Both the position numbers and the translations under genes were made by a program. From positions 806,001 to 870,000 of the forward strand of contig NZ_CP128170.1 in the NCBI RefSeq assembly GCF_030347395.1: DNA of 64,000 nucleotides. Reading direction: 5' to 3'. Under the pieces are notes generated by a model. The model saw only the letters and a program-made list of their open reading frames with translations, searched no databases and was not told the DNA's origin. Shown piece after piece: positions 19,001-29,838 of the stretch. The first letter of the stretch is position 1. Every line of letters begins with the position of its first letter. This stretch comes from Microbacterium sp. ET2 (GTDB taxonomy: Bacteria; Actinomycetota; Actinomycetes; Actinomycetales; Microbacteriaceae).

Positions 19001-19027
19001 GGGACTCTTCTTTCTCGGGTGGGGGGG

Positions 19028-19432
19028 TTACTGCTCGGGCAGGACGTCTTCGTGATTGTGGACGAGGAGCCACGTGCCCTCTCGCCTCCGCCAGACGCCG
19101 GTGTTCCGGACTCGTTCAGGACGGGCGGCGGGGTCGGTGAAACGGACGGTGAAGGTGTGTCGGACGAGGGCGAAGTCCTCCCAGACGTCGATGACCGGTT
19201 CCGTGACGTCGATTCCCGCGACGGCCCCTACGCTCCCCGGCGGGCGGCTGTCGCGCAGCGCGTTCAGGCCGGACAAGCCGAAGACGAGGGGCTCGTGCTC
19301 GGTGTCCCAGAGGGTCACGTCCTCGGCGATGTAGCTGTCGGCTCGCGCACGGTCGCTGGTCAGGTATGCGTCGTACATGGCGTACACCGCGTCGTGCAGC
19401 CACTTCTCGTCGTCGGTCACGGATGATGACAT
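19028..19432 (-). CDS. SnoaL/NTF2-like fold protein
   Basis: This 134-residue single-domain protein has the NTF2-like cone pattern: helix WLHDAVYAMYDAYLTSDRARADSYIAEDV, then strands VTLWDTEHEPLVFGLSGL, FALVRHTFTVRFTD and TGVWRRREGTWLLVHNHED. Proteins of this type include isomerases, hydrolases and non-catalytic ligand-binding domains, so no reaction can be assigned. The ATG at 19432 was preferred over a GTG two codons earlier because AGGAA lies six bases upstream. It is the first gene of the importer 2 transcript. Confidence 0.8.
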   Translation of the reverse strand: MSSSVTDDEKWLHDAVYAMYDAYLTSDRARADSYIAEDVTLWDTEHEPLVFGLSGLNALRDSRPPGSVGAVAGIDVTEPVIDVWEDFALVRHTFTVRFTDPAARPERVRNTGVWRRREGTWLLVHNHEDVLPEQ

Positions 19433-19569
19433 CGTCACTTCCTGAGTGTTCGGGAGAGCCGCGGATGCTCAGATGGAAACAGATTCTTCGTTTCAATCGT
19501 ATTTCGTAAGGAGAAGTCGATCTCAGGTCTTACGTTCAGAAGAAATTTGACGGATGAACCGGCCGTTTG

Positions 19570-19599
19570 TCTATAGCGAATTACAACGGAATCGTCACA
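19570..19599 (-). promoter_or_regulatory. Candidate promoter of the SnoaL/importer 2/M24 transcript
   Basis: On the minus strand TGTGAC (19594-19599) and TATAGA (19570-19575) are separated by 18 bases. This is the most promoter-like pair in the 162-base gap. The downstream leader of about 130 bases contains an inverted repeat GAAAC...GTTTC and a GTTCA...TGAAC pair that could be operators. Confidence 0.4.
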
Positions 19600-20527
19600 G
19601 TCCGAGCTGGCGGGTGAGGTCGTCCAGCTCGTCGATCACGGCTCCGATGCGATTGAGACGGTCCTCGCCCTCGGCACCCAGCTGCGCGAACGTCGTCAGC
19701 GGCGGGCGCACCGTTCCCATGGGGTAGCCTGCGCGCTCTGCGAGCCGCTTGGAGTAGCACTGGTGGCCGTACGTGGGATGCCCCGCGGCGATGATGGCGT
19801 CGAATCGCTTGATCAGACCGTCGATCCGTCGAGCATCCTCGATGCGCCCCTCCTCCAGGAGCCCCCAGATGCCTGCGGACGCGCGGGGGATGTAGTTCCC
19901 GTAGGGATTGACGTAGCCCTGTGCGCCCAGGAGGTAGGAGTCCACCACCCGCTCCCCCGCGTAGACGGTGATGGCGTCGCCGGCGAGATCGATCACGTCC
20001 CGCACCCGGGCGATGTCCTGCGAGGACTCCTTGATGTACGAGACGGTGGCGAAGTCCTTCGCCAGACGCGCGACGAGCTCCGCGCTCATGTCGACGTTCG
20101 AGGTGACGGGGTTGTTGTACAGCATGATCGGCAGATCGACGGCTCCGACGATCGCTTCGTAGTGACGATAGATCTCGTCGTCGGTGGGCGTGTAGTAGTA
20201 CGGCGGCACGATCATCAGGCCGTCGGCCCCCAGGTCCCGCGCCTCGACGCTGAACTGCACCGCCCGCGTCGTCGAGGCGTCGGCCGTGCCGACCAGCACG
20301 GGGATCCGCCCGGCGATGTGCTCCACGGTCGCTCCGACCAGCTCGCGACGCTCCTCCGGCGTGACCGAGAGGAATTCGCCCGTCGTTCCGAGCATGATGA
20401 TTCCGGGAACACCCTCCGCGAGCTGCCAATCGAGGAACGCACGCAGCCGGTCGAGGTCGACGCGGCTGAGGTCGTCGGTGAAGGGCGTGACCGCGACGGT
20501 GTAGGAACCCGAGAAGGTAGCGGGCAT
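19595..20527 (-). CDS. Dihydrodipicolinate synthase/N-acetylneuraminate lyase family protein
   Basis: This is a 310-residue TIM-barrel class I aldolase-type protein. The Schiff-base lysine lies in YIKESS, the conserved tyrosine in MIVPPYYYTPTDDE, and the phosphate/carboxylate-binding motif is LGTTGEF. It lacks features needed to call it lysine-pathway DapA. Its setting beside a DAO-type FAD dehydrogenase and an iron-sulfur flavoprotein matches pyrroline-4-hydroxy-2-carboxylate deaminases of hydroxyproline catabolism, which belong to this family. Other lyase or dehydratase roles are possible. The ATG at 20527 has AGAGAGG upstream. It is divergent from the FAD gene and shares the conserved 26-bp element at 20542-20567. 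Confidence 0.88.
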   Translation of the reverse strand: MPATFSGSYTVAVTPFTDDLSRVDLDRLRAFLDWQLAEGVPGIIMLGTTGEFLSVTPEERRELVGATVEHIAGRIPVLVGTADASTTRAVQFSVEARDLGADGLMIVPPYYYTPTDDEIYRHYEAIVGAVDLPIMLYNNPVTSNVDMSAELVARLAKDFATVSYIKESSQDIARVRDVIDLAGDAITVYAGERVVDSYLLGAQGYVNPYGNYIPRASAGIWGLLEEGRIEDARRIDGLIKRFDAIIAAGHPTYGHQCYSKRLAERAGYPMGTVRPPLTTFAQLGAEGEDRLNRIGAVIDELDDLTRQLGL

Positions 20528-20541
20528 GAAGTGACCTCTCT

Positions 20542-20567
20542 GCGAACAACTGTACGTAAAGTGAACA
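20542..20567. promoter_or_regulatory. Shared 26-bp operator-like element, copy A
   Basis: Read on the plus strand it fits GYGAAY-N4-GTRCG-N5-YGAACR, with the two GAAC half-sites exactly 19 bases apart. It lies between the divergent DHDPS-family and FAD-dehydrogenase genes, at about -45 to -20 relative to the inferred start of the latter. Three other copies lie at 23526, 25159 and 28027. Confidence 0.7.
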
Positions 20568-20574
20568 CCCAGGA

Positions 20575-20586
20575 TACGGTGTAGGC
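20575..20586 (+). promoter_or_regulatory. -10 box of a leaderless promoter for the FAD dehydrogenase
   Basis: TACGGT is followed by six bases and then the ATG at 20587, with no ribosome site between. This spacing puts the transcription start at the A of ATG, the typical actinobacterial leaderless arrangement. No -35 match is seen, and copy A of the 26-bp element occupies that region. Confidence 0.5.
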
Positions 20587-21744
20587 ATGGTGGATCGGAA
20601 GCATCCCAGGCATGTCTTCGATGTCGCGGTGGTCGGCGGAGGCGCGAGCGGGGCTGCGGCAACCTACCATCTGAGCCGAGCCGGACTCGATGTGGTGCTC
20701 CTGGACCGCAACGATCTCAACACCGAGGCGTCCGGGCGGAACGCCGGAAGCCTCCACGGTCAGATCCAGCACGAGCCCTTCTTGGAGGAGGGTGCCGAGT
20801 GGGCGGAGGCGTGGCTGCCCGCACTGCGGTTCCTGGCCGACTCCCTCACGCTCTGGGACGGACTGAGCGACGAACTGGGCACCGACCTGCAGGTGGCGAA
20901 GAAGGGCGGCATCCTCGTCGCCGACGACGTGAGCCAGCTCGCCGCGATCGAGCGGAAGGTCGCGCTCGAGAATCGAATCGGCATTCCCAGTCGGATGCTG
21001 TCCGCCGGCGAACTCCGGAGCCTCGCCCCGTGGCTCAGCGATTCCGTCGTCGGCGGGGAGCTGTGCCCGATCGAGGGCAAGGCGAATCCCCTGCTCGTCG
21101 CCCCGGCCTTCGCGCGTCGCGCCCTGGAGGCCGGAGCCGTGGTGCGCACCCAGACCCCGGCGGTGGGTTTCGACCGCGACGGCGACGCGCGCGTCATCCG
21201 CACTCCCGGCGGCGAGGTCCGGGCTCGACGTGTCATCCTCGCGGGAGGGGACGGGATGCCGGATCTCGCCCGCCACTTCGACCTCGATCTGCCGATCTCC
21301 AGCGGCGCGGTGCAGGTCAGTGTCACCGAGCGGGTCGATCCGATGGTGGCGCACCTCTTCTACTACGCCGGCGGAAAGCTGACCTTCAAGCAGGCGCAGT
21401 CCGGCACCCTGCTCATCGGCGGCGGATGGCCGGCCCGGCGCAACGCGGCAGGGGAATGGATCGTCAACCCCGACTCGCTGCGTGCGAACCTGGCGATGGC
21501 GATCCGCATCGCCCCGGTGATCGCCGACCTCGCGCTCCTGCGCACCTGGACGGGCATCGGCAACGGGACCCCCGACCACAGCCCGATCATCGGCCCCGTG
21601 ACGGCCGATGGCGACGTCATCGTCGGGTTCTACCCCTACATGGGCTTCACGGCGGCGCCGCTCATGGGGCGGATCCTCGCCGACCTCGCCCGGGGCGAAG
21701 ACCCCGGTCTCGACCTCACGCCGTTCGCCCCGACCCGCTTCTGA
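20587..21744 (+). CDS. FAD-dependent D-amino acid/imino acid dehydrogenase (DAO family)
   Basis: This is a 385-residue oxidoreductase with the N-terminal FAD-binding motif VAVVGGGASGAAATYHLSRAG and the adenine-pyrophosphate continuation VVLLDRNDLNTEASGRNAGSLHG. The C-terminal substrate domain ends with WTGIGNGTPDHSPIIGPV and GFYPYMGFTAAPL. This form is typical of the small subunit of heteromeric D-hydroxyproline, sarcosine-like and opine dehydrogenases. The convergent neighbour at 21793-23508 looks like the matching large subunit, so the two likely form one electron-transferring dehydrogenase for an imino acid or N-substituted amino acid. The exact substrate is unknown. Confidence 0.9.
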   Translation: MVDRKHPRHVFDVAVVGGGASGAAATYHLSRAGLDVVLLDRNDLNTEASGRNAGSLHGQIQHEPFLEEGAEWAEAWLPALRFLADSLTLWDGLSDELGTDLQVAKKGGILVADDVSQLAAIERKVALENRIGIPSRMLSAGELRSLAPWLSDSVVGGELCPIEGKANPLLVAPAFARRALEAGAVVRTQTPAVGFDRDGDARVIRTPGGEVRARRVILAGGDGMPDLARHFDLDLPISSGAVQVSVTERVDPMVAHLFYYAGGKLTFKQAQSGTLLIGGGWPARRNAAGEWIVNPDSLRANLAMAIRIAPVIADLALLRTWTGIGNGTPDHSPIIGPVTADGDVIVGFYPYMGFTAAPLMGRILADLARGEDPGLDLTPFAPTRF

Positions 21745-21792
21745 CCGCCAACCCGATTGCGAGAGGCTCGGCCGCCTCAGGCGGGAGCGCGC

Positions 21793-23508
21793 TCACCCCT
21801 GGGCGACGTCCCCCAGCGGCACGGGCTTGACCGGCGCCTGCGGGGCGAATCCCGAGCGCTCCGCGACAGCGACACCGGTGCGCGCGGCCTGCATCGCTGT
21901 GAGCACGGGGCCGCAGTACCGCCCCTGGCACTTCCCCATGCCGGCGCGCGTGACGCGCTTGACCGCACCGGCCGTGGTGACGCCGTCGGTCATCGACTCG
22001 GCGAGGTCTCCGTGCGTCGTGCCTTCGCACCGACAGACCACCGTGTCCGGCCGCGCAAGTTGATCGGTGAGGACAGGGGCCGCGAACAGCGTGTTCACGG
22101 CCCGCTGGAACGCCGCCTGACGGCGCGCGTCCGCCGCTGCCTGGCGGGGCGCGCCCGACGGCTCGCCCCGGAGGTCCCGGCGGATGGCGGCCGCGGCCAG
22201 TTTCGCCTGCGCCTGTGCGAACTTCGCGCCGCGCACGCCCGCGGCGTCGCCGATCGCGAAGACCGACTCGAGGGATGTGCGGCCCTCGTCGTCGGTCACC
22301 GTGCGCAGCGCTCCCCGGGCCGCGTCGACCTCATGCCGGCATCCGAGCGATCGCGCGAGGTCGTTCCCCGGCAGGAAGCCGTAGCCGAGGCACACTGCGT
22401 CGACGTCGAAGGACCGCAGCTCCCGCGTCATCCGTCCCTCTTCGTCGATGCGTCCGATGGTCGCGCGGGAGACGCCGGCCGCCGGATCCCCCTCGAGCCC
22501 CACCACGGCGGCGCCGGTGATGATCGGAACCCGCCGCGCCGTCAACTCGGCGAGGTAGCGGACGCCGTCGGCGGTGAGACCGGGGACCGCGAGGGCCATG
22601 CGCGCGACCGCGGCTGCGCGCAGCGGCGAGAAGATCCGAGCCGCCTCGACCAGCCCGACGACGTTCACTCCCCCGCGCGCCAGCTCGGCAGCCAGCTGCA
22701 CGTTCAGTGGGCCGTTCCCCGCGACGAGGACGCGGTCTCCGGGCGAGACCTGGTAGGACCGCAGCAGGGTCTGCCCCGCACCGGTGGTCATCACACCCGG
22801 CAGGGTCCAGCCCGGGATCGGCACGCCCCGCTCGTAGGCGCCGGCGGCGATCACCACCCGCCGGGGGCGGATGATCCAGCGCTCCTGATCCGACCGAGCG
22901 AGAAGGTGATCCGGCTCGAAGGCCGCCCACACGGTGGTGCCCAGGAGTGTGCGCACCCCCGCGGTCTGCGCCGCGCGGATCAACCGGCGGCCCGCGATGT
23001 ACTGGCGGTCCAAGCGGTCTTCGTCGACGCGGAACGCCGCGTCCGGTTGCTTGTAGTACTGCCCCCCGAGCTTCGGGCGATCGTCGACCAGCAGCACATC
23101 CAGACCCCCCTCAGCCAGCGCGGTCGCAGCGACGAGACCTGCGGGCCCTCCCCCGATGACGAGGACGTCGGGGGAGATCTCCGTCTCGGGGCGGGCCGGG
23201 GTGGTCGCGGCGGGAACCCGGCGCCGGGGCGGCTGGGTCTCGATGATCTGGCCGTTCCGCGCGGGGGTCATGCACGCGAGCCGGGCGTCCTCGCCATCGA
23301 TGCGCACTGCGCATTCGTGACACACGCCCATGCCGCACCAGACACCGCGCCGACCGCCCGCGTCATCGGCGCGATTGCCTCGCTCCCCCGCCGCGACCAT
23401 CGCGCTGGCGACGGAATCGGTGGCGCTGACCGCAACGGTGCGACCGTCGAAGCACAGCGCGCCGTCGCCCTCCGCGTCGCCGCCGATGCCGGGGGTGGTC
23501 ACTCTCAT
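21793..23508 (-). CDS. Fused [2Fe-2S]/FAD-NAD(P)/BFD oxidoreductase, large subunit of a heteromeric dehydrogenase
   Basis: This 571-residue protein has three parts. Residues 1-90 are a plant-type [2Fe-2S] domain with Cys in WCGMGVCHECAV and a fourth Cys in RLACM. Residues about 110-460 are a pyridine-nucleotide-disulfide-type flavoprotein (VLVIGGGPAGLVAATALAEGG, and VFAIGDAAGVRG near the FAD). The end carries a BFD-type [2Fe-2S] site (CRCEG ... GKCQGRYCG). Hydroxyproline (LhpE/LhpF-like), cyanide-forming glycine (HcnA/HcnB-like) and opine dehydrogenases have these parts, often on separate chains. Here the ferredoxin part is fused. The ATG at 23508 has AAGGAG six bases upstream. It lies 48 bases convergent to the DAO gene, its likely partner. 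Confidence 0.88.
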   Translation of the reverse strand: MRVTTPGIGGDAEGDGALCFDGRTVAVSATDSVASAMVAAGERGNRADDAGGRRGVWCGMGVCHECAVRIDGEDARLACMTPARNGQIIETQPPRRRVPAATTPARPETEISPDVLVIGGGPAGLVAATALAEGGLDVLLVDDRPKLGGQYYKQPDAAFRVDEDRLDRQYIAGRRLIRAAQTAGVRTLLGTTVWAAFEPDHLLARSDQERWIIRPRRVVIAAGAYERGVPIPGWTLPGVMTTGAGQTLLRSYQVSPGDRVLVAGNGPLNVQLAAELARGGVNVVGLVEAARIFSPLRAAAVARMALAVPGLTADGVRYLAELTARRVPIITGAAVVGLEGDPAAGVSRATIGRIDEEGRMTRELRSFDVDAVCLGYGFLPGNDLARSLGCRHEVDAARGALRTVTDDEGRTSLESVFAIGDAAGVRGAKFAQAQAKLAAAAIRRDLRGEPSGAPRQAAADARRQAAFQRAVNTLFAAPVLTDQLARPDTVVCRCEGTTHGDLAESMTDGVTTAGAVKRVTRAGMGKCQGRYCGPVLTAMQAARTGVAVAERSGFAPQAPVKPVPLGDVAQG

Positions 23509-23525
23509 CCGGTTCTCCTTCGGTT

Positions 23526-23551
23526 CGTTCGCACAACGCACCTTCATTCGC
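23526..23551. promoter_or_regulatory. Shared 26-bp operator-like element, copy D
   Basis: Read on the minus strand it has GAAT and GAAC half-sites 19 bases apart around a GTGCG core, matching the other three copies with one half-site change. It lies between the divergent iron-sulfur flavoprotein and SDR genes. A TATTAT box at 23567-23572 follows in the SDR direction. Confidence 0.6.
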
Positions 23552-23612
23552 CATACGAACCATGTCTATTATGATGGCCATTGACGTCCCGCGACCGTTC
23601 CCGGAGGCAATC

Positions 23613-23669
23613 ATGACCCGTCAGCGTGCTGTTCTTCCTCAGCGCGACCGCCTCGGCGGCGGACGATGA
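23613..23669 (+). CDS. Possible 18-codon leader ORF overlapping the SDR start
   Basis: The ATG at 23613 follows a strong GGAGG six bases upstream and encodes 18 residues (MTRQRAVLPQRDRLGGGR). The stop overlaps the SDR start codon as ATGA, whereas the SDR itself has no good ribosome site. The arrangement suggests translational coupling. A small indel that separated an original longer start from the SDR frame is the alternative. Expression is unproven. Confidence 0.35.
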   Translation: MTRQRAVLPQRDRLGGGR

Positions 23670-24430
23670 GCGAGTTGGCGGGACGGACGGTTCTCGTCAC
23701 GGGCGCCTCCGGCGGCATCGGCCGCGCAACCGTCGAGAGGCTCGCCTCATCCGGGGCCAGGGTCATCGCGCACGGTCGCTCCAATCCCGAGGGGGCCATG
23801 GAGGCCATCGCCGACTTCCCCGAGGGTTCCGCCACGGTCATCCAGGCCGACCTCGCCGACCCGCAGGGGGCATCGGAACTGTGGCGGGACGCCCTCCGCT
23901 GGGCGGGACGGATCGATGTGGTGGTTCTGAACGCGGCCATCATGCCCAAGGTCGAACTCGACGACACCGACGAGGCGTGGAACGAGACCTTCGAACGGGC
24001 CCTGCAGGTCAACACCCTCAGCCAGCTCACTCTCATCCGCCGGTCGCTTGCGCACTTCCTGGCCGAGGGCGGCGGCACGATCGTGGGACTGAGCAGCTGG
24101 GTGACACAGCGGGGAGCGGGAAATCCGAACCTCGTCGCCTACGCCGCCTCGAAGGCAGCGACGGCTGCGGCCCTGAAGACCGTCGCCCGCGCATATGCGG
24201 CCGACGGAGTCTGCACCTACCTCATCGCCCCCGGTGCGGTGGACACCCCGATGTCCGCTTCCGCGGGAGCGGACCGCGGCGGGCGGGAGGCCGTGCTGCA
24301 GACGCTCGCCATGGGAGAGATGGTGCCGCCGGCCGAGATCGCCGAACTGATCGCACTGCTGGCGAGCGGCCGGGTTCGCCATCTGAGCGGCGCCACGCTG
24401 GACGTCAACGGGGCCACCTACGTCCGCTGA
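23666..24430 (+). CDS. SDR family NAD(P)-dependent oxidoreductase
   Basis: This is a 254-residue classical short-chain dehydrogenase. It shows the cofactor motif TGASGGIG (residues 11-18), VVLNAAIM (NNAG-like), the catalytic Ser in GLSSW and the YAASK catalytic pair, ending with the usual LSGATLDVNGATYV. The AHGRS segment after strand 2 favours NADP. It is divergent from the iron-sulfur flavoprotein and convergent, by ten bases, with a second SDR-like gene. Its own ribosome site is weak and it is probably translated by coupling to the short ORF at 23613. The substrate is unknown; by position it may act on an intermediate of the block's pathway. Confidence 0.9.
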   Translation: MSELAGRTVLVTGASGGIGRATVERLASSGARVIAHGRSNPEGAMEAIADFPEGSATVIQADLADPQGASELWRDALRWAGRIDVVVLNAAIMPKVELDDTDEAWNETFERALQVNTLSQLTLIRRSLAHFLAEGGGTIVGLSSWVTQRGAGNPNLVAYAASKAATAAALKTVARAYAADGVCTYLIAPGAVDTPMSASAGADRGGREAVLQTLAMGEMVPPAEIAELIALLASGRVRHLSGATLDVNGATYVR

Positions 24431-24440
24431 CCGGCCGAGT

Positions 24441-25109
24441 TCAGCGAGTGCCGACACTCTCTTCGATGCGTTCGATGACGCTCCACCCCGACTCGATCAC
24501 CACGAGGGCGCCGGTGACGTGCCGGGACACATCGGAGGCGAGGAAGCGCAGCGCCGTCTCATCTTGATCGCCGGCGGGCGCCAGGGCGTTGACGCGCACA
24601 CCATGGGGCTCGAGCTCGTGAGCGAACTCCCGGACCATCTGGTTGATCGCCTCCGAGGACATCGCGCGGGTGCCGCGTTCCGCGCCGGTCGCAGCCCGCG
24701 CTCCCGAATAGGCGATGATCGACCCGCGACCTCGGGCCGCCATCGCGGGAGCGAAGTGCCGAAGCGCCGCCCAGCATGACGCGACCTCGGCGGTGAACGC
24801 ATCGACGAGGTCGTGCTCCGCCGCGATCGGAACACCCGCTGAGTACCCTCGGTCGGCGCAGTGGATCAGCACCTCGGTGTCGTCGAACTCCGCAGCCAAT
24901 CGCTGCACATGACTGCCGTCGGTGATGTCGACGTCCCATACCCGGAAGCGGTCATCGGCGCCGAAGACGGCCTCGAGCTGCGCCACATCCTCGTCGGCGA
25001 CGATCACCCGCGCCCCGTGCCCGGCCAGCGTGCGCGCCGCCGAGCGTCCCATCGCGCCTGCGGCGCCGAGGACCAGCACGGTGCGGCCGATCAGGTCAGG
25101 GGCGCACAT
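24441..25109 (-). CDS. SDR-like protein lacking the catalytic Tyr/Lys
   Basis: This 222-residue Rossmann protein is clearly of SDR descent: VLVLGAAGAMGRSAARTL at the cofactor site, the strand IIAYSGARAATG carrying a Ser, and VRVNALAPAGDQ. Where SDRs have Tyr-x-x-x-Lys it reads TRAMSSEAINQ, so the Tyr position is Ala and the Lys position is Glu. The Asn-Ala-Gly motif is also altered to IHCADRG. It is therefore unlikely to be a normal dehydrogenase and may be a regulatory or partner subunit. The ATG at 25109 has no clear ribosome site. Copy C of the 26-bp element lies 50-75 bases upstream. Confidence 0.82.
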   Translation of the reverse strand: MCAPDLIGRTVLVLGAAGAMGRSAARTLAGHGARVIVADEDVAQLEAVFGADDRFRVWDVDITDGSHVQRLAAEFDDTEVLIHCADRGYSAGVPIAAEHDLVDAFTAEVASCWAALRHFAPAMAARGRGSIIAYSGARAATGAERGTRAMSSEAINQMVREFAHELEPHGVRVNALAPAGDQDETALRFLASDVSRHVTGALVVIESGWSVIERIEESVGTR

Positions 25110-25158
25110 GTCGCATCCGTCGGTAGCGGGGTGTGATCACGGGGGTATCCTCGCCTAT

Positions 25159-25184
25159 TGTTCGCTTACCGCACATGCGTTCAC
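25159..25184. promoter_or_regulatory. Shared 26-bp operator-like element, copy C
   Basis: The minus-strand reading fits GYGAAC-N4-GTGCG-N5-CGAACA with 19-base half-site spacing. Identity with copy B continues beyond the core, to 24 of 32 aligned bases. It precedes the SDR-like gene and is followed by AGGATAC, which also follows copy A in the FAD-gene direction. Confidence 0.68.
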
Positions 25185-25238
25185 TGTGCGATCGCTCTCT
25201 CTATCTTGCACCAGAACCACGGGGCTCGCATCCTCCGC

Positions 25239-26054
25239 CTAGGCGGACGTTCCTTCCGCGTCCTCGACACCGGAGCGCGTATCGAGGATGCGGGAGAGGA
25301 ATCGTCGGGTCCGCTCCTCGACGGGTCGGTCGAGCACCTCCCTCGCACTGCCGCTCTCCACGATCCGACCGTCATCCATGAAGACGACGCGGTCGGCGAC
25401 CTCCCGCGCGAATTCGATCTCGTGCGTGACGACGATCATCGTCAGCCCTTCGGAGGCCAGGCGCCTCATGACCGAGAGGACCTCCCCGACAGTCTCGGGA
25501 TCCAGGGCCGAGGTGGGCTCATCGAACAGCATCACGCGAGGGCGCATGGCCAGAGCACGCGCGATCGCCGCACGCTGCTGCTGTCCTCCGGAGAGCTGGC
25601 GCGGATAGGCCGCTTCTTTCCCGCTCAGCTGCACCCACTCCAGCAGCTGACGCGCATGCGTCTCCGCCTCCGCCCGTGGTGTGCGCAGCACCTGGATCGG
25701 GGCTTCGATGATGTTCTCGAGCACCGTCATGTGCCCGAACAGATTGAAGTTCTGGAACACCATCCCGATCTCGGTGCGCTGACGGGCGAGCTCTGCGGGG
25801 CCGATCTCGACCAGGTGTCCCCGGCTCTCTCGCACCCCCACGGGCTCGTCACCGAGCCACACGATTCCGGCGGTCGGCGTCTCGAGATGATTGATGCAGC
25901 GCAGGAGCGTGGACTTGCCCGACCCGGAGGGACCGATCACACAGACGACCTCGCCGCGGAAGACCTCCAGATCCACCTCACGGAGGACCGCGAGCGCCCC
26001 GAAACTCTTGCTCACAGCCTGCAGACGGATGACGGGGTCGACGATCGCGGTCAT
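25239..26054 (-). CDS. Polar amino-acid ABC transporter ATPase (GlnQ/HisP type)
   Basis: This 271-residue ATPase has Walker [11 protein letters not shown]-loop [19 protein letters not shown], signature [12 protein letters not shown], Walker [13 protein letters not shown] and switch His in VVTHE. The [13 protein letters not shown] segment is diagnostic for the polar amino-acid uptake family. Translation is coupled to the permease by an ATGA overlap, giving the order binding protein, permease, ATPase. The importer belongs to the regulon marked by the 26-bp element and probably brings in the substrate of the neighbouring dehydrogenase/lyase genes. Confidence 0.93.
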
Positions 26055-27067
26055 GCCGGCGTCCTCTCCCTCGGCCCGGAGACGGGTGTCGTCCTCGGCA
26101 GGAGCTTGCGGAGCTTCTGCAGATACGTATCGGGTGCGCTCCGTGTCGCGCCTCGTGCGTAGTACTTCTCGATGTAGTGCTGACCGATCGAAAGCACCGT
26201 CGTCAGCACGAGATACCAGATGCAGGCCACCACCAGAAGCGGAATGGTCTCGAAGGTGCGGGCGTAGATCACCTGGACGGTGTAGAGGAGTTCACTGATG
26301 GCGACGATGCTCACCAGGCTCGTCCCCTTGAGCATCGAGATCACCTGGTTCCCCGTCGGCGGGACGATCACCCGCATCGCCTGCGGCAGCACGATGCGCC
26401 GCATCGCCCGGCGCCGCGACATCCCGAGCGCGGCGGCGGCCTCGCTCTGGCCCTGGTCAACCGACTGGATGCCGGCGCGGATGATCTCGGACATGTAGGC
26501 ACCCTCGTTCAACCCCAGCCCCAGCAGCGCAGCGACCAGGGAGCTGATCACCGTGTTGGTATCCCACTCGAACCACTGCGGTCCGAAGGGGATGCCGAGG
26601 GTGAGCTTCGGCAGGAAGCTGGCGAGGTTGTACCAGAACAGCAGCTGAACGAGCAGGGGCGTTCCCCGGAACAGCCAGATGTAGGCGTCGGCGGCCACGT
26701 TGAACAGAAGGCTCTGAGAGATCTTCATCAGGGCGAGGATCAACCCGATGAGGCATCCGAGCACCATCGCGACCGCGGTCAGGAAGAGCGTGAGCCCGAC
26801 GCCCTGCAGCACCCGGTCGCTGAAGAGATACTCTCCGACCACATCCCACCGCATGGCGTCAGCGGTGAGAAATTTCGAGATGATCTCCAGCACGAACAGC
26901 ACGAGGAGGATCCGCAGCGCCCATCCCGCGGTCTTCACGGCGAGGTGGCGCGCCGTGGTGGTGCGCACCCGGGGCCCTTCGGGGCCCCGTCCGATCTGCA
27001 GCGTGGTGGTCAGCGGCCCCCGGCTCGAGCGCTCATCGGGAGCCTCATCGGTGCCGGTCGAGGTCAC
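26051..27067 (-). CDS. Polar amino-acid ABC transporter permease (HisM/GlnP type)
   Basis: This 338-residue permease is longer than the family norm of about 220-250. It has a roughly 45-residue N-terminal cytoplasmic extension and a C-terminal extension after the last helix. The core includes [37 protein letters not shown] and the EAA loop [20 protein letters not shown], all typical of the polar amino-acid class. A single permease implies a homodimeric channel. It overlaps the binding-protein stop and the ATPase start, both as ATGA. Confidence 0.93.
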
Positions 27068-27990
27068 TGCTCGACGCTCGGATTGACGACCGCCTCATCG
27101 AGCAGGCCGAAGTCGACATCCCAACTGGTCATGATCGTCTCGTAGGTGCCGTCCTCGATGAGCTCGTTCACCGCTGCCGCGATGGCCTCGGTCATACCGG
27201 AGTCCTTCCCCACCGCTACTCCCTCGAGGTTCGGCTGGTAGTCCAGCGGCTGGATCTCCAGACCCTCGGCACTGCTGTCCTCGCGCAGCAGCCACGACAG
27301 CTGACCCTTTGCGGTCATGAACGCGTCGATGCGGTCGGAGCTCACGGCGAGGATCGCCGCAGCCTGCTGCGGGAACGAATCGATGGTCGGCGCCGGTTCT
27401 CCGGCGTCGTCGCAGATCGTCACGATCTCCTCGATCTGGATGAGGAACGCCGACCCTGCCAGCGCGCCGACGCGGAGCCCGCACAGGTCCTCGGGCGTGC
27501 TGATGTCCAGACCCGCATCCTCACTCGTGATGACTCCGGTGGTGCTCTCGTGCACGGCGACGATGTCGACGACGTCGAGCCGCTCTTGGGTGACGATGAT
27601 GGATGCCCACGAGCTGTCGAATCGGCCGTTCTCGATACCTGGGATGAAGGTGTCGAAGGCGCCCGACACCTCGGCGGTGTACTCCAATCCCAGCAACGCA
27701 GCGGCGGCGCGTCCGAGATCGGGGCCCCACCCCGCGATCTGGTCGTTCTCGTCGAGGAATGTGTCTGCCGGTGCGTTGTCGAACTGGATGGCGGTGAGGG
27801 TTCCGCGTTCAGCCACATCCTCGGGTACGAGTTGTGCCAGCTCGTCGTTGGTCTCGATGGTGACGCCGGCGACCTCGATCGATCCGCTGGAATCGTCCCC
27901 GTCGCCCGAGGCGCAGCCCGCGAGAGTGAGACCCAGAACTGAAAAGGCGGCGAGGCCGACGAGAACGCGGCGGGTGGCGGGGATGTTCAT
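27064..27990 (-). CDS. Polar amino-acid ABC transporter substrate-binding lipoprotein (family 3)
   Basis: This 308-residue protein has lipobox LTLAGC with Cys at residue 26 and a Ser/Asp/Gly linker. The family 3 domain includes AGWGPDLGRAAAALLGLEY, in place of the usual GFDVDL, and NGRFDSSWASIIVTQERLDVVDIV and LCGLRVGALAGS. These substitutions suggest a non-standard ligand. The ATG at 27990 was chosen over an upstream Met because AAGGAG lies eight bases before it and a signal peptide follows directly. It opens the importer operon, and copy B of the 26-bp element is 37-62 bases upstream. Confidence 0.92.
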   Translation of the reverse strand: MNIPATRRVLVGLAAFSVLGLTLAGCASGDGDDSSGSIEVAGVTIETNDELAQLVPEDVAERGTLTAIQFDNAPADTFLDENDQIAGWGPDLGRAAAALLGLEYTAEVSGAFDTFIPGIENGRFDSSWASIIVTQERLDVVDIVAVHESTTGVITSEDAGLDISTPEDLCGLRVGALAGSAFLIQIEEIVTICDDAGEPAPTIDSFPQQAAAILAVSSDRIDAFMTAKGQLSWLLREDSSAEGLEIQPLDYQPNLEGVAVGKDSGMTEAIAAAVNELIEDGTYETIMTSWDVDFGLLDEAVVNPSVEQ

Positions 27991-28026
27991 CGAGGCGGCT
28001 CCTTGCAGGTCGGACGAGGTCAAGTG

Positions 28027-28052
28027 TGTTCGTTGTACGCACGAGTGTTCAC
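28027..28052. promoter_or_regulatory. Shared 26-bp operator-like element, copy B
   Basis: The minus-strand reading fits GYGAAC-N4-GTGCG-N5-CGAACA with half-sites 19 bases apart. A third GTTC lies 11 bases beyond. It precedes the polar amino-acid importer operon. Confidence 0.68.
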
Positions 28053-28102
28053 TATGCGTTCATCGAAGTCAACACATTCGCTGGGCGCACAACCCGGACC
28101 GA

Positions 28103-28597
28103 TCAGCGGAACGAATCGACGACGGCGTTGCGGTGGTAATCGAAGATGATGTTCGTCCGGGTCGAGGCCACGCGGTCATGACCGGAGATCTGCTCCACGA
28201 CGAAGCGACGCAATGCCGAGGAGTCGGTCACGGCCACGTGAACGATGAAGTCGTCGGCGCCGCCGAGGAAGAACACCTGCACGACCTCGGCGAGCGAGCG
28301 GGTGTGTTCGGCGAAATCGGTGATACTCGCCTGACGTGCGCCGGGGCGGAGCGTCACCCCGACGAGGGCCTGCAGCGCCACGCCGAGCCTGGCCTGTGCG
28401 ACGCTGGCCGTGAACGACGAGATGACGCCGCGGTCGATGAGCCCGCGCAGGCGCGTATGGGCAGTCGACGGGGCGACGCCGACTCGCTCCGCTAGCGCGG
28501 CATTGGTGATCCTGCCGTCCGCCGTCACCGCCTCGAGGATCCGACGATCGAGCTCGTCCAACGGAACAGGTTGTGGATCGTTCGGCTCAGGTGCCAT
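28103..28597 (-). CDS. Lrp/AsnC family regulator (AldR-like)
   Basis: This 164-residue regulator has a winged-helix N-terminus (LDELDRRILEAVTADGRITNAALAERVGVAPST) and a RAM domain (VVQVFFLGGADDFIVHVAVTDSSALRRFV). The ATG at 28597 has AAGGAGGT upstream, and earlier in-frame codons are not needed. It is transcribed divergently from alanine dehydrogenase across a 122-base gap, the usual arrangement for an alanine-sensing activator of ald such as mycobacterial AldR. It is also the nearest regulator to the 26-bp-element regulon, but nothing in the sequence ties it to those sites. Confidence 0.92.
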   Translation of the reverse strand: MAPEPNDPQPVPLDELDRRILEAVTADGRITNAALAERVGVAPSTAHTRLRGLIDRGVISSFTASVAQARLGVALQALVGVTLRPGARQASITDFAEHTRSLAEVVQVFFLGGADDFIVHVAVTDSSALRRFVVEQISGHDRVASTRTNIIFDYHRNAVVDSFR

Positions 28598-28669
28598 CCG
28601 AGACCTCCTTCTTCGACACGGGCCCGTCAATCGGCGGAGAATGCCGAATGTTCATCGGATGGCCTGCCG

Positions 28670-28698
28670 TTTTGACGACTTTTCTCCAACACTATTCA
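28670..28698 (+). promoter_or_regulatory. Candidate alanine dehydrogenase promoter
   Basis: TTTTGA (28670-28675) and TATTCA (28693-28698) are 17 bases apart, ending 21 bases before the start codon of ald. This AT-rich patch contrasts with its surroundings and lies in the regulator/ald divergent gap. Confidence 0.4.
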
Positions 28699-28719
28699 TC
28701 AACTGCGAAAGGAGCGGTG

Positions 28720-29838
28720 ATGCGAGTCGGTATCCCAGCGGAGATCAAGAACAACGAAGACCGCGTGGCAGCGACGCCGGCGATCGTGGACCAGCTGCGT
28801 CGCCGCGGCCATGAGGTCGTCATCCAGGCGGGCGCCGGTGAGGGCTCTCGCATCTCCGACGCCGACTTCGTCGCCGCAGGGGCCAGGCTCGCCGCGACCG
28901 CGGACGACGTGTGGGAGCAGGGCGACCTGATCCTCAAAGTCAAGGAGCCGATCGCCGCGGAATACGGCCGGATGCGACGGGGACAGGTGCTCTTCACCTT
29001 CCTTCACCTCGCGGCCTCGCGCGCGTGCACCGAAGCCCTGCTCTCGAGCGGGGTCACCTCCATCGCCTACGAGACTGTTCAGCTGCCCGATCGCTCGCTC
29101 CCCCTGCTCACCCCCATGAGCGAGGTCGCCGGGCGCCTCTCGATCCAGGTCGGTGCCACCCATCTGATGCGCCCGGCCGGGGGACGCGGCACGCTCCTGG
29201 GCGGTATCGCCGGCACCCGCAAAGGCAAGGTCGTGGTCATCGGCGGCGGAGTCGCCGGTGAGAACGCCGCCCGCAACGCCGTGGGCTTCGGCGCGGACGT
29301 CACGGTGATCGACATCTCGCTCCCCCGCCTGCGGGCTCTGGAGTCGGAGTTCGGCGGTCTCATCCAGACCCGGCACTCGTCGCCTCTCGAGATCGCCGAT
29401 CAGCTCGTCGACGCCGATCTCGTCATCGGATCGGTGCTGATCCCGGGGGCTGCCGCGCCGAAGCTCGTCACCGACGAGATGGTGGCGGCGATGAAGCCTG
29501 GATCTGTGCTCGTGGACATCGCGATCGACCAGGGCGGCTGCTTCGAGGGCTCGCGACCCACCACCCACGACGAGCCGACCTTCGCGGTGCACGGGAGCCT
29601 GTACTACTGCGTCGCGAACATGCCCGGCGCCGTTCCCGAGACCGCCACGCGGGCCCTGACCAACGCCACCGCGCCCTACGTGCTGCGCCTGGCCGACCGC
29701 GGATGGCAGGATGCCCTCCGCGCCGATCCGGCGCTGAAGGCCGGCCTCAGCACCCACAACGGGCTGCTCACCAACGCCGATGTCGGTGCGGCACTGAAGC
29801 TGGATGTGGCAAGCGCCGACGTTGTGCTCGCGGCCTGA
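28720..29838 (+). CDS. ald: Alanine dehydrogenase
   Basis: This 372-residue NAD-dependent enzyme converts L-alanine to pyruvate and ammonium, or the reverse. Visible landmarks are the N-terminus RVGIPAEIKNNEDRVAATP, the substrate-binding Lys in LILKVKEP, the catalytic His in LFTFLHLAAS, the NAD motif VVVIGGGVAGENAARNA and SVLVDIAIDQGGCFE. The length matches family members (about 370). The ATG at 28720 has AAAGGAG seven bases upstream. A divergent Lrp-type regulator precedes it and a bidirectional terminator follows it. It can feed alanine from peptide uptake into pyruvate. Confidence 0.96.
   Translation: MRVGIPAEIKNNEDRVAATPAIVDQLRRRGHEVVIQAGAGEGSRISDADFVAAGARLAATADDVWEQGDLILKVKEPIAAEYGRMRRGQVLFTFLHLAASRACTEALLSSGVTSIAYETVQLPDRSLPLLTPMSEVAGRLSIQVGATHLMRPAGGRGTLLGGIAGTRKGKVVVIGGGVAGENAARNAVGFGADVTVIDISLPRLRALESEFGGLIQTRHSSPLEIADQLVDADLVIGSVLIPGAAAPKLVTDEMVAAMKPGSVLVDIAIDQGGCFEGSRPTTHDEPTFAVHGSLYYCVANMPGAVPETATRALTNATAPYVLRLADRGWQDALRADPALKAGLSTHNGLLTNADVGAALKLDVASADVVLAA

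Follow-up and report, generated by a model that had tools for sequence, protein, structure and literature searches.

Four copies of a 26-bp element stand in front of the genes of a catabolic block in Microbacterium sp. ET2, and the sequence analysis presented here predicts that a regulator of the IclR family, PcaR/PcaU/PobR branch, uses them as operators; in this genome that regulator is very probably a protein designated IclR-A, encoded outside the stretch of DNA in which the element was noticed. That stretch, referred to as the window, is 64,000 bp long (C1:806001-870000 of the single 3,604,840-bp contig), and positions without a prefix are counted from its first letter. An earlier note on this DNA had proposed that the shared element, with the pattern GYGAAY-N4-GTRCG-N5-YGAACR, defines an undescribed regulon. 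The set of apparently co-controlled genes is real and is supported by the sites and their conservation, and the regulon reaches beyond the block; the operator type is already known, and the IclR candidate outside the window is well supported. No description of this regulon was found in the literature search, in which one paper (PMC8222616) was looked at beyond the listings.

The four copies carry no mismatch to the pattern and lie at 20542..20567 on the forward strand (site 1) and at 23526..23551, 25159..25184 and 28027..28052 on the reverse strand (sites 2, 3 and 4), all four in promoter regions of the block as had been claimed. Site 1 separates divergent genes for a DHDPS-family enzyme and an FAD-dependent dehydrogenase, site 2 lies between an iron-sulfur (Fe-S)/FAD oxidoreductase gene (start 23508) and a divergent short-chain dehydrogenase (SDR) gene (start 23666), site 3 is upstream of a further SDR gene (start 25109), and site 4 is upstream of an amino-acid importer operon (solute-binding protein start 27990). 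In a scan of the window the four sites score 31.4-37.9, against 13.8 for the next-best position (49715), which agrees with the reported absence of the motif from the peptide-importer and putrescine regions. They are also the only exact matches in the whole genome. Allowing up to two mismatches raises the genomic count to 20 (four exact, two with one mismatch and 14 with two), compared with 5 for the reversed pattern used as a control, and among the 198 genomes of the genus sample there are 22 exact matches in 14 genomes and none for the control. The motif is thus not at background frequency. The two one-mismatch sites are at C1:785794, between genes for a class III aminotransferase and a succinate-semialdehyde dehydrogenase (SSADH)-like protein, and at C1:2244935, in front of a gene for an MFS transporter; the counterpart of this gene in a related genome (G086) has a similar site, ~10 kb from pcaR. 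Eleven of the 14 two-mismatch sites fall inside predicted coding sequence; the other three do not, and one of them is in the pcaI promoter. Another two-mismatch site (C1:2788800-2788825; L038), which may be due to chance, lies 18 bp upstream of a gene that we take to be sucC-like (succinyl-CoA synthetase beta subunit).

Read in the direction of the motif, each site consists of three half-site boxes, at positions 2-7 (YGAAYR), 10-15 (inverted, NGTRCG) and 21-26 (YGAACR); in site 1 these are 20543-20548, 20551-20556 (inverted) and 20562-20567. Neighbouring boxes are inverted relative to each other, with a gap of 2 bp between the first and second and of 5 bp between the second and third, and the outer two have the same direction at a distance of 19 bp. 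The half-sites described earlier as direct repeats 19 bases apart are therefore present, but that description was incomplete, as the middle GTRCG is part of a third, inverted half-site. A reading with two direct half-sites only is ruled out by this inverted middle box and by the match to published three-box sites.

In the portion of the IclR survey used here (Suvorova and Gelfand 2021, PMC8222616), three-box sites are described as a palindromic pair with an extra direct-repeat box, one pair having the consensus GKTYCRYW3-4RYGRAMC and the other TGRAACAN1-2TGTTYCA; PcaU, PobR and HmgR are named as earlier cases, and site centres are placed mostly at -20 to -80 from the start codon. The layout, box spacing and positions of the window sites match those passages of the survey. 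One pair of boxes fits the survey's group 1 (TGT-11-ACA type) and the other group 2 (N1-2 gap), with letters that vary between copies, and for five of the six predicted starts the site centre falls within the published range, at approximately -28 and -32 (the two genes flanking site 1), -30, -62 and -50. The sixth start, that of the SDR gene at 23666, is at approximately -127. With three alternating boxes, a single site could accommodate a dimer in different registers or more than one dimer, and overlapping matches on both strands with further alternating boxes occur at several promoters. One such array, longer than the three-box sites of the window, has overlapping alternating boxes on both strands at C1:796895-796979 (L071:8895-8979), between a VOC-family gene and a divergent SDR gene. 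A sigma-70 promoter scan carries little weight, with two matches against a shuffle mean of 0.7; one of the two overlaps the end of site 2.

Because the pattern was fitted to the same four sites, the fair tests are others: a matrix from relatives, orthologous promoters and counts across the genus. A matrix built from 20 sites of relatives, with none from the host genome (G000) or G086, scores the window sites at 35.8, 34.8, 24.5 and 21.2, each more than the highest value reached in 60 shuffles of the surrounding 100 kb (19.8), and its top ranks within C1:770001-870000 are the site at 785794, the four window sites and the array at 796.9 kb. A second matrix was derived from 14 of the 18 loci with a site upstream of pcaI (L191 was left out, as were L201-L203, from genomes holding IclR-A), and it brings the same set to the top of the 100 kb, where the window sites take ranks 1-3 and 7; only two of the four outscore the top value from 60 shuffles (25.5; mean of the top values 13.6). 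Both matrices are partly circular, since their training sets were collected using a matrix from the window's four sites. A de novo motif search, made to remove this circularity, covered the 150 bp upstream of pcaI in 19 Microbacterium loci (20 were fetched, one of them without a pcaI call) and started without any motif. The pattern WRCGnACRnnYGTTCGCAnAGCGAAC was recovered in 18 of the 19 loci, the exception being a locus with a divergent pcaR (L194), with an information content of 29.8 in the best and 24.9 in the worst of eight runs, compared with 12.1-12.8 in six shuffled runs. This motif has the same three-box layout as the window motif, and thus the presumed operator of PcaR, a sister IclR regulator, shares the layout of the window sites.

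The gene for IclR-A (C1:787453-788253) is located ~38 kb upstream of site 1 and follows an SSADH gene, itself preceded by the one-mismatch site at C1:785794. Its product has an IclR-type winged helix-turn-helix (HTH) domain (PF09339, C1:787498-787641; 53.3 bits against a cut-off of 22) and scores 281.7 bits on TIGR02431 (PcaR/PcaU/PobR) over residues 12-256 of 267, the next best model reaching 130.1. A genome was counted as having the block if it encoded an ortholog at least 70% identical to the Fe-S/FAD oxidoreductase of the window; all seven such genomes among the 198, host included, encode IclR-A at no less than 81% identity and hold at least one exact motif. In five of these seven (G153, G095, G017, G131 and G193) a paralog, IclR-B, 69-71% identical to IclR-A, is encoded inside the block, between the SDR gene and the importer; in the host and G086 IclR-B is absent, and its place is taken by an SDR gene that has a site of its own. 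The earlier statement that the block encodes no regulator therefore applies to the host and G086 and fails for the other five. No remnant of IclR-B was detected by tblastn in window positions 19001-29000 (best E 1.8). With IclR-B missing from the host and G086, IclR-A presumably controls the block from a distance in these two genomes; we infer both binding by IclR-A and the direction of control. Of the 22 exact sites of the genus sample, 11 are within ~5 kb of a gene for PcaR or IclR-A/B and one is at ~10.6 kb, seven (in the host and G086) are 38-46 kb from IclR-A, and three are unlinked (G107, G152 and G175), two of these in coding sequence. In a tree of 30 IclR proteins, IclR-A, IclR-B and the corresponding genes of Leucobacter and Aeromicrobium form one clade apart from PcaR (100/100). 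The recognition helices of IclR-A, IclR-B and PcaR have R-A-x-x-R-R in common, with G in place of the first paired R in three of 14 PcaR rows.

Conservation in the orthologous promoters of related species, on which the earlier note had made its regulon depend, is seen for the motif as a whole, with a gap at site 2. Site 1 is kept in all six relatives with the block (G086, G017, G095, G153, G193 and G131). The promoter of site 4 has exact copies in G017, G095, G131, G153 and G193, and a copy with one mismatch in G086. Among the seven block genomes the SDR gene behind site 3 occurs at this place only in the host and G086, where the ortholog is 89% identical and the counterpart of the site scores 34.0 bits. 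Site 2 has an orthologous site in G086 and weaker ones (17-22 bits) in G017, G095, G193 and G153; in G131 no counterpart at 14 bits or above was found. Outside the genus, Leucobacter soli and Aeromicrobium hold the same enzymes, the importer, motif copies and a single IclR gene in one cluster, with copies that are strong in the former and weak (14.0-18.5 bits) in the latter.

The regulon would comprise the window block (DHDPS-family enzyme, FAD dehydrogenase, Fe-S/FAD oxidoreductase, SDRs and amino-acid importer), a paralogous sister block, and an aminotransferase/glycine-dehydrogenase-like operon with the SSADH gene next to IclR-A. Beyond the window, a second catabolic block and an aminotransferase/SSADH pair are found near IclR-A, and IclR-A is beside the sister block with its array of further boxes. 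In the sister block the Fe-S flavoprotein and FAD dehydrogenase functions are joined in one 898-aa protein (L071:2714-5410), while the window block has the FAD dehydrogenase and Fe-S flavoprotein as separate convergent genes (20587-23508); the oxidoreductase genes of the two blocks are ~34 kb apart, and both are present in all six sampled relatives with the block. The aminotransferase operon also encodes GcvPA/GcvPB-like proteins that score above NCBIfam cut-offs (L070:10283-13197), beside which no GcvT or GcvH was recognised in the gene list.

Several observations weigh against IclR-A as the regulator. Its gene is 38-46 kb from the window sites, and the HTH_IclR model has 28 further matches in the host genome, a part of them from other HTH families, including Lrp. 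IclR-A falls 3 bits short of the curated TIGR02431 cut-off (284.75), and it is therefore described as close kin of the PcaR/PcaU/PobR subfamily and not as PcaR itself. Site 2, which has no counterpart of at least 14 bits in G131, also receives the lowest score of the four from both of the other matrices (21.2 and 19.1). M. kunmingense (G051) encodes IclR-A (93% identity) and lacks the block; there IclR-A abuts Lrp-Ald, the 20-kb locus contains no site of at least 14 bits, and the single site that this genome has at one mismatch or fewer lies elsewhere; the coupling of gene and motif is thus imperfect. This genome (L171) is apparently a natural case of lost targets with the regulator retained. 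Lastly, the host's PcaR operator has the same layout, and PcaR could therefore bind the block here.

That the host block's sites are bound mainly by PcaR (encoded at ~2.193 Mb), or by PcaR and IclR-A together, is considered improbable. The shared three-box layout of PcaR-linked operators, the high ranks that the pcaI matrix gives to the window sites and a recognition helix similar to those of IclR-A/B are all consistent with PcaR binding. Conversely, it is IclR-A/B and not PcaR that are physically linked to the block and the sister block, and three relatives (G017, G095 and G131) possess block and motif with no match to IclR-A at E ≤ 1e-30 beyond IclR-A and IclR-B themselves among the best 13 candidates scored per genome; PcaR is thus not generally needed. 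The PcaR proteins of Microbacterium, encoded beside pcaIJF, form a separate clade with other targets and are 45-49% identical to IclR-A/B in the pairs compared, the host PcaR being 48% identical to IclR-A. It should be noted that host pcaF and pcaR read as a single 648-aa frame (L073:5662-7608; C1 ~2,191,661-2,193,607), while the two genes are separate in G086 and M. kunmingense; as the end of the thiolase part looks unlike that of the relatives, the single frame is more probably due to a frameshift or a sequencing error than to a genuine pcaF-pcaR fusion.

Less likely still is binding by the Lrp/AsnC-type protein at 28103..28561 (reverse strand), encoded divergently from alanine dehydrogenase, which the earlier note had put forward as a candidate. 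Lrp-family proteins are able to bind arrays of sites, and no other regulator gene lies as close to site 4 (51 bp), but its distribution does not follow the motif. Homologues at E ≤ 1e-30 are present in 95 of the 198 genomes, 12 with and 83 without an exact motif; M. kunmingense retains the protein at 98% identity, still facing Ald, in the locus that lacks block and sites; and in Leucobacter soli and Aeromicrobium, which have motif and block, no gene matches the window Lrp at E ≤ 1e-15 within the 20 kb examined. Additionally, the lrp-ald intergenic region holds no site of at least 9 bits. The candidate was not borne out, and this protein is judged not to be the regulator of the motif. A DeoR-type repeat operator was also considered and set aside; no DeoR-type regulator was recognised by eye in the island gene lists, no DeoR search having been made.

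A resemblance produced by chance or composition, or a mobile repeat, can be dismissed almost entirely: it is true that the pattern was derived from the four sites themselves and that the number of matches in the window with three mismatches allowed (7 against 4.9 expected) is not above chance, but the matrix from other species recovers all four sites above 60 shuffles, all four are in promoter regions, the control has no match in 198 genomes, orthologous promoters keep the motif, and the N positions differ among the copies, which are thus not copies of one repeat.

IclR-A remains the preferred candidate regulator, and the system it would govern can be set beside known ones. As far as the part of PMC8222616 used here describes them, PcaU, PobR and HmgR operators have the same palindromic pair with an extra direct box, the same alternating directions and GTNCG-N5-CGNAC core and a similar closeness to the start codon, and their regulators are of the same IclR branch. 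They differ from the present case in their targets, genes for 4-hydroxybenzoate and protocatechuate as opposed to an amino-acid-type catabolic island with its importer, and in that the candidate regulator of the host is 38 kb from the block.

The presumed targets were assigned from Pfam matches. Site 1 would serve the DHDPS-family lyase/aldolase (19595..20527, reverse strand, 310 aa; PF00701, 185.5 bits) and the FAD-dependent amino-acid dehydrogenase of the DAO family (20587..21744, forward strand, 385 aa; PF01266, 200.9 bits). The presumed targets of site 2 are the 2Fe-2S/FAD oxidoreductase (21793..23508, reverse strand, 571 aa; Fer2_4, Pyr_redox_2 and Fer2_BFD) and the short-chain dehydrogenase (23666..24430, forward strand; PF13561); an alternative oxidoreductase start at 23547 (584 aa) is possible and would place part of site 2 within the gene. 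The SDR-like protein downstream of site 3 (24441..25109, reverse strand; PF00106) occupies the place that gene maps assign to IclR-B in five relatives. Site 4 would control the amino-acid ABC importer operon (25239..27990, reverse strand; PF00005, PF00528 and PF00497), composed of genes for an ATPase (25239-26054), a permease (26051-27067) and the solute-binding protein (27064-27990).

An NCBIfam search of the enzymes assigned no specific substrate. In three relatives (G017, G131 and G095) the island includes a copy of pcaIJF behind its own three-box site (20.2, 30.1 and 30.4 bits), and in the aminotransferase operon of Plantibacter (G370) pcaIJF comes after gcvPB. No site of at least 14 bits accompanies the pcaIJF copies that G017 and G131 have in their protocatechuate operons, and a search for the intradiol dioxygenase domain PF00775 gave no match in G095 and one weak match in G370. 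Because of the island pcaIJF copies in these four relatives, the analysis tentatively points to 3-oxoadipate or a 3-oxoacid like it as the island's product, a compound that IclR-A would sense. Catabolism of L-hydroxyproline may be the route, as may other pathways leading to 3-oxoadipate: the DHDPS-family enzyme, Fe-S/FAD dehydrogenase and aldehyde dehydrogenase would fit hydroxyproline breakdown, and no epimerase was recognised in the island gene lists, no genome-wide search for one having been made. A broader account is possible, though doubtful, in which a PcaR-like IclR with two paralogs was recruited to a pathway not described before. A nitrogen compound resembling an amino acid would be taken up and converted by FAD/Fe-S dehydrogenation, transamination and aldehyde oxidation into 3-oxoadipate, whose level the regulator would sense; in this species one paralog would have been lost, and the other would have taken over both blocks from a distance.

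For the biology of these organisms, the catabolic island gains a named candidate regulator, a defined operator and a boundary for its regulon. The host and G086 offer a natural example in which a regulator was lost and a distant paralog presumably took over its role, and the island's link to pcaIJF helps to narrow down its substrate.

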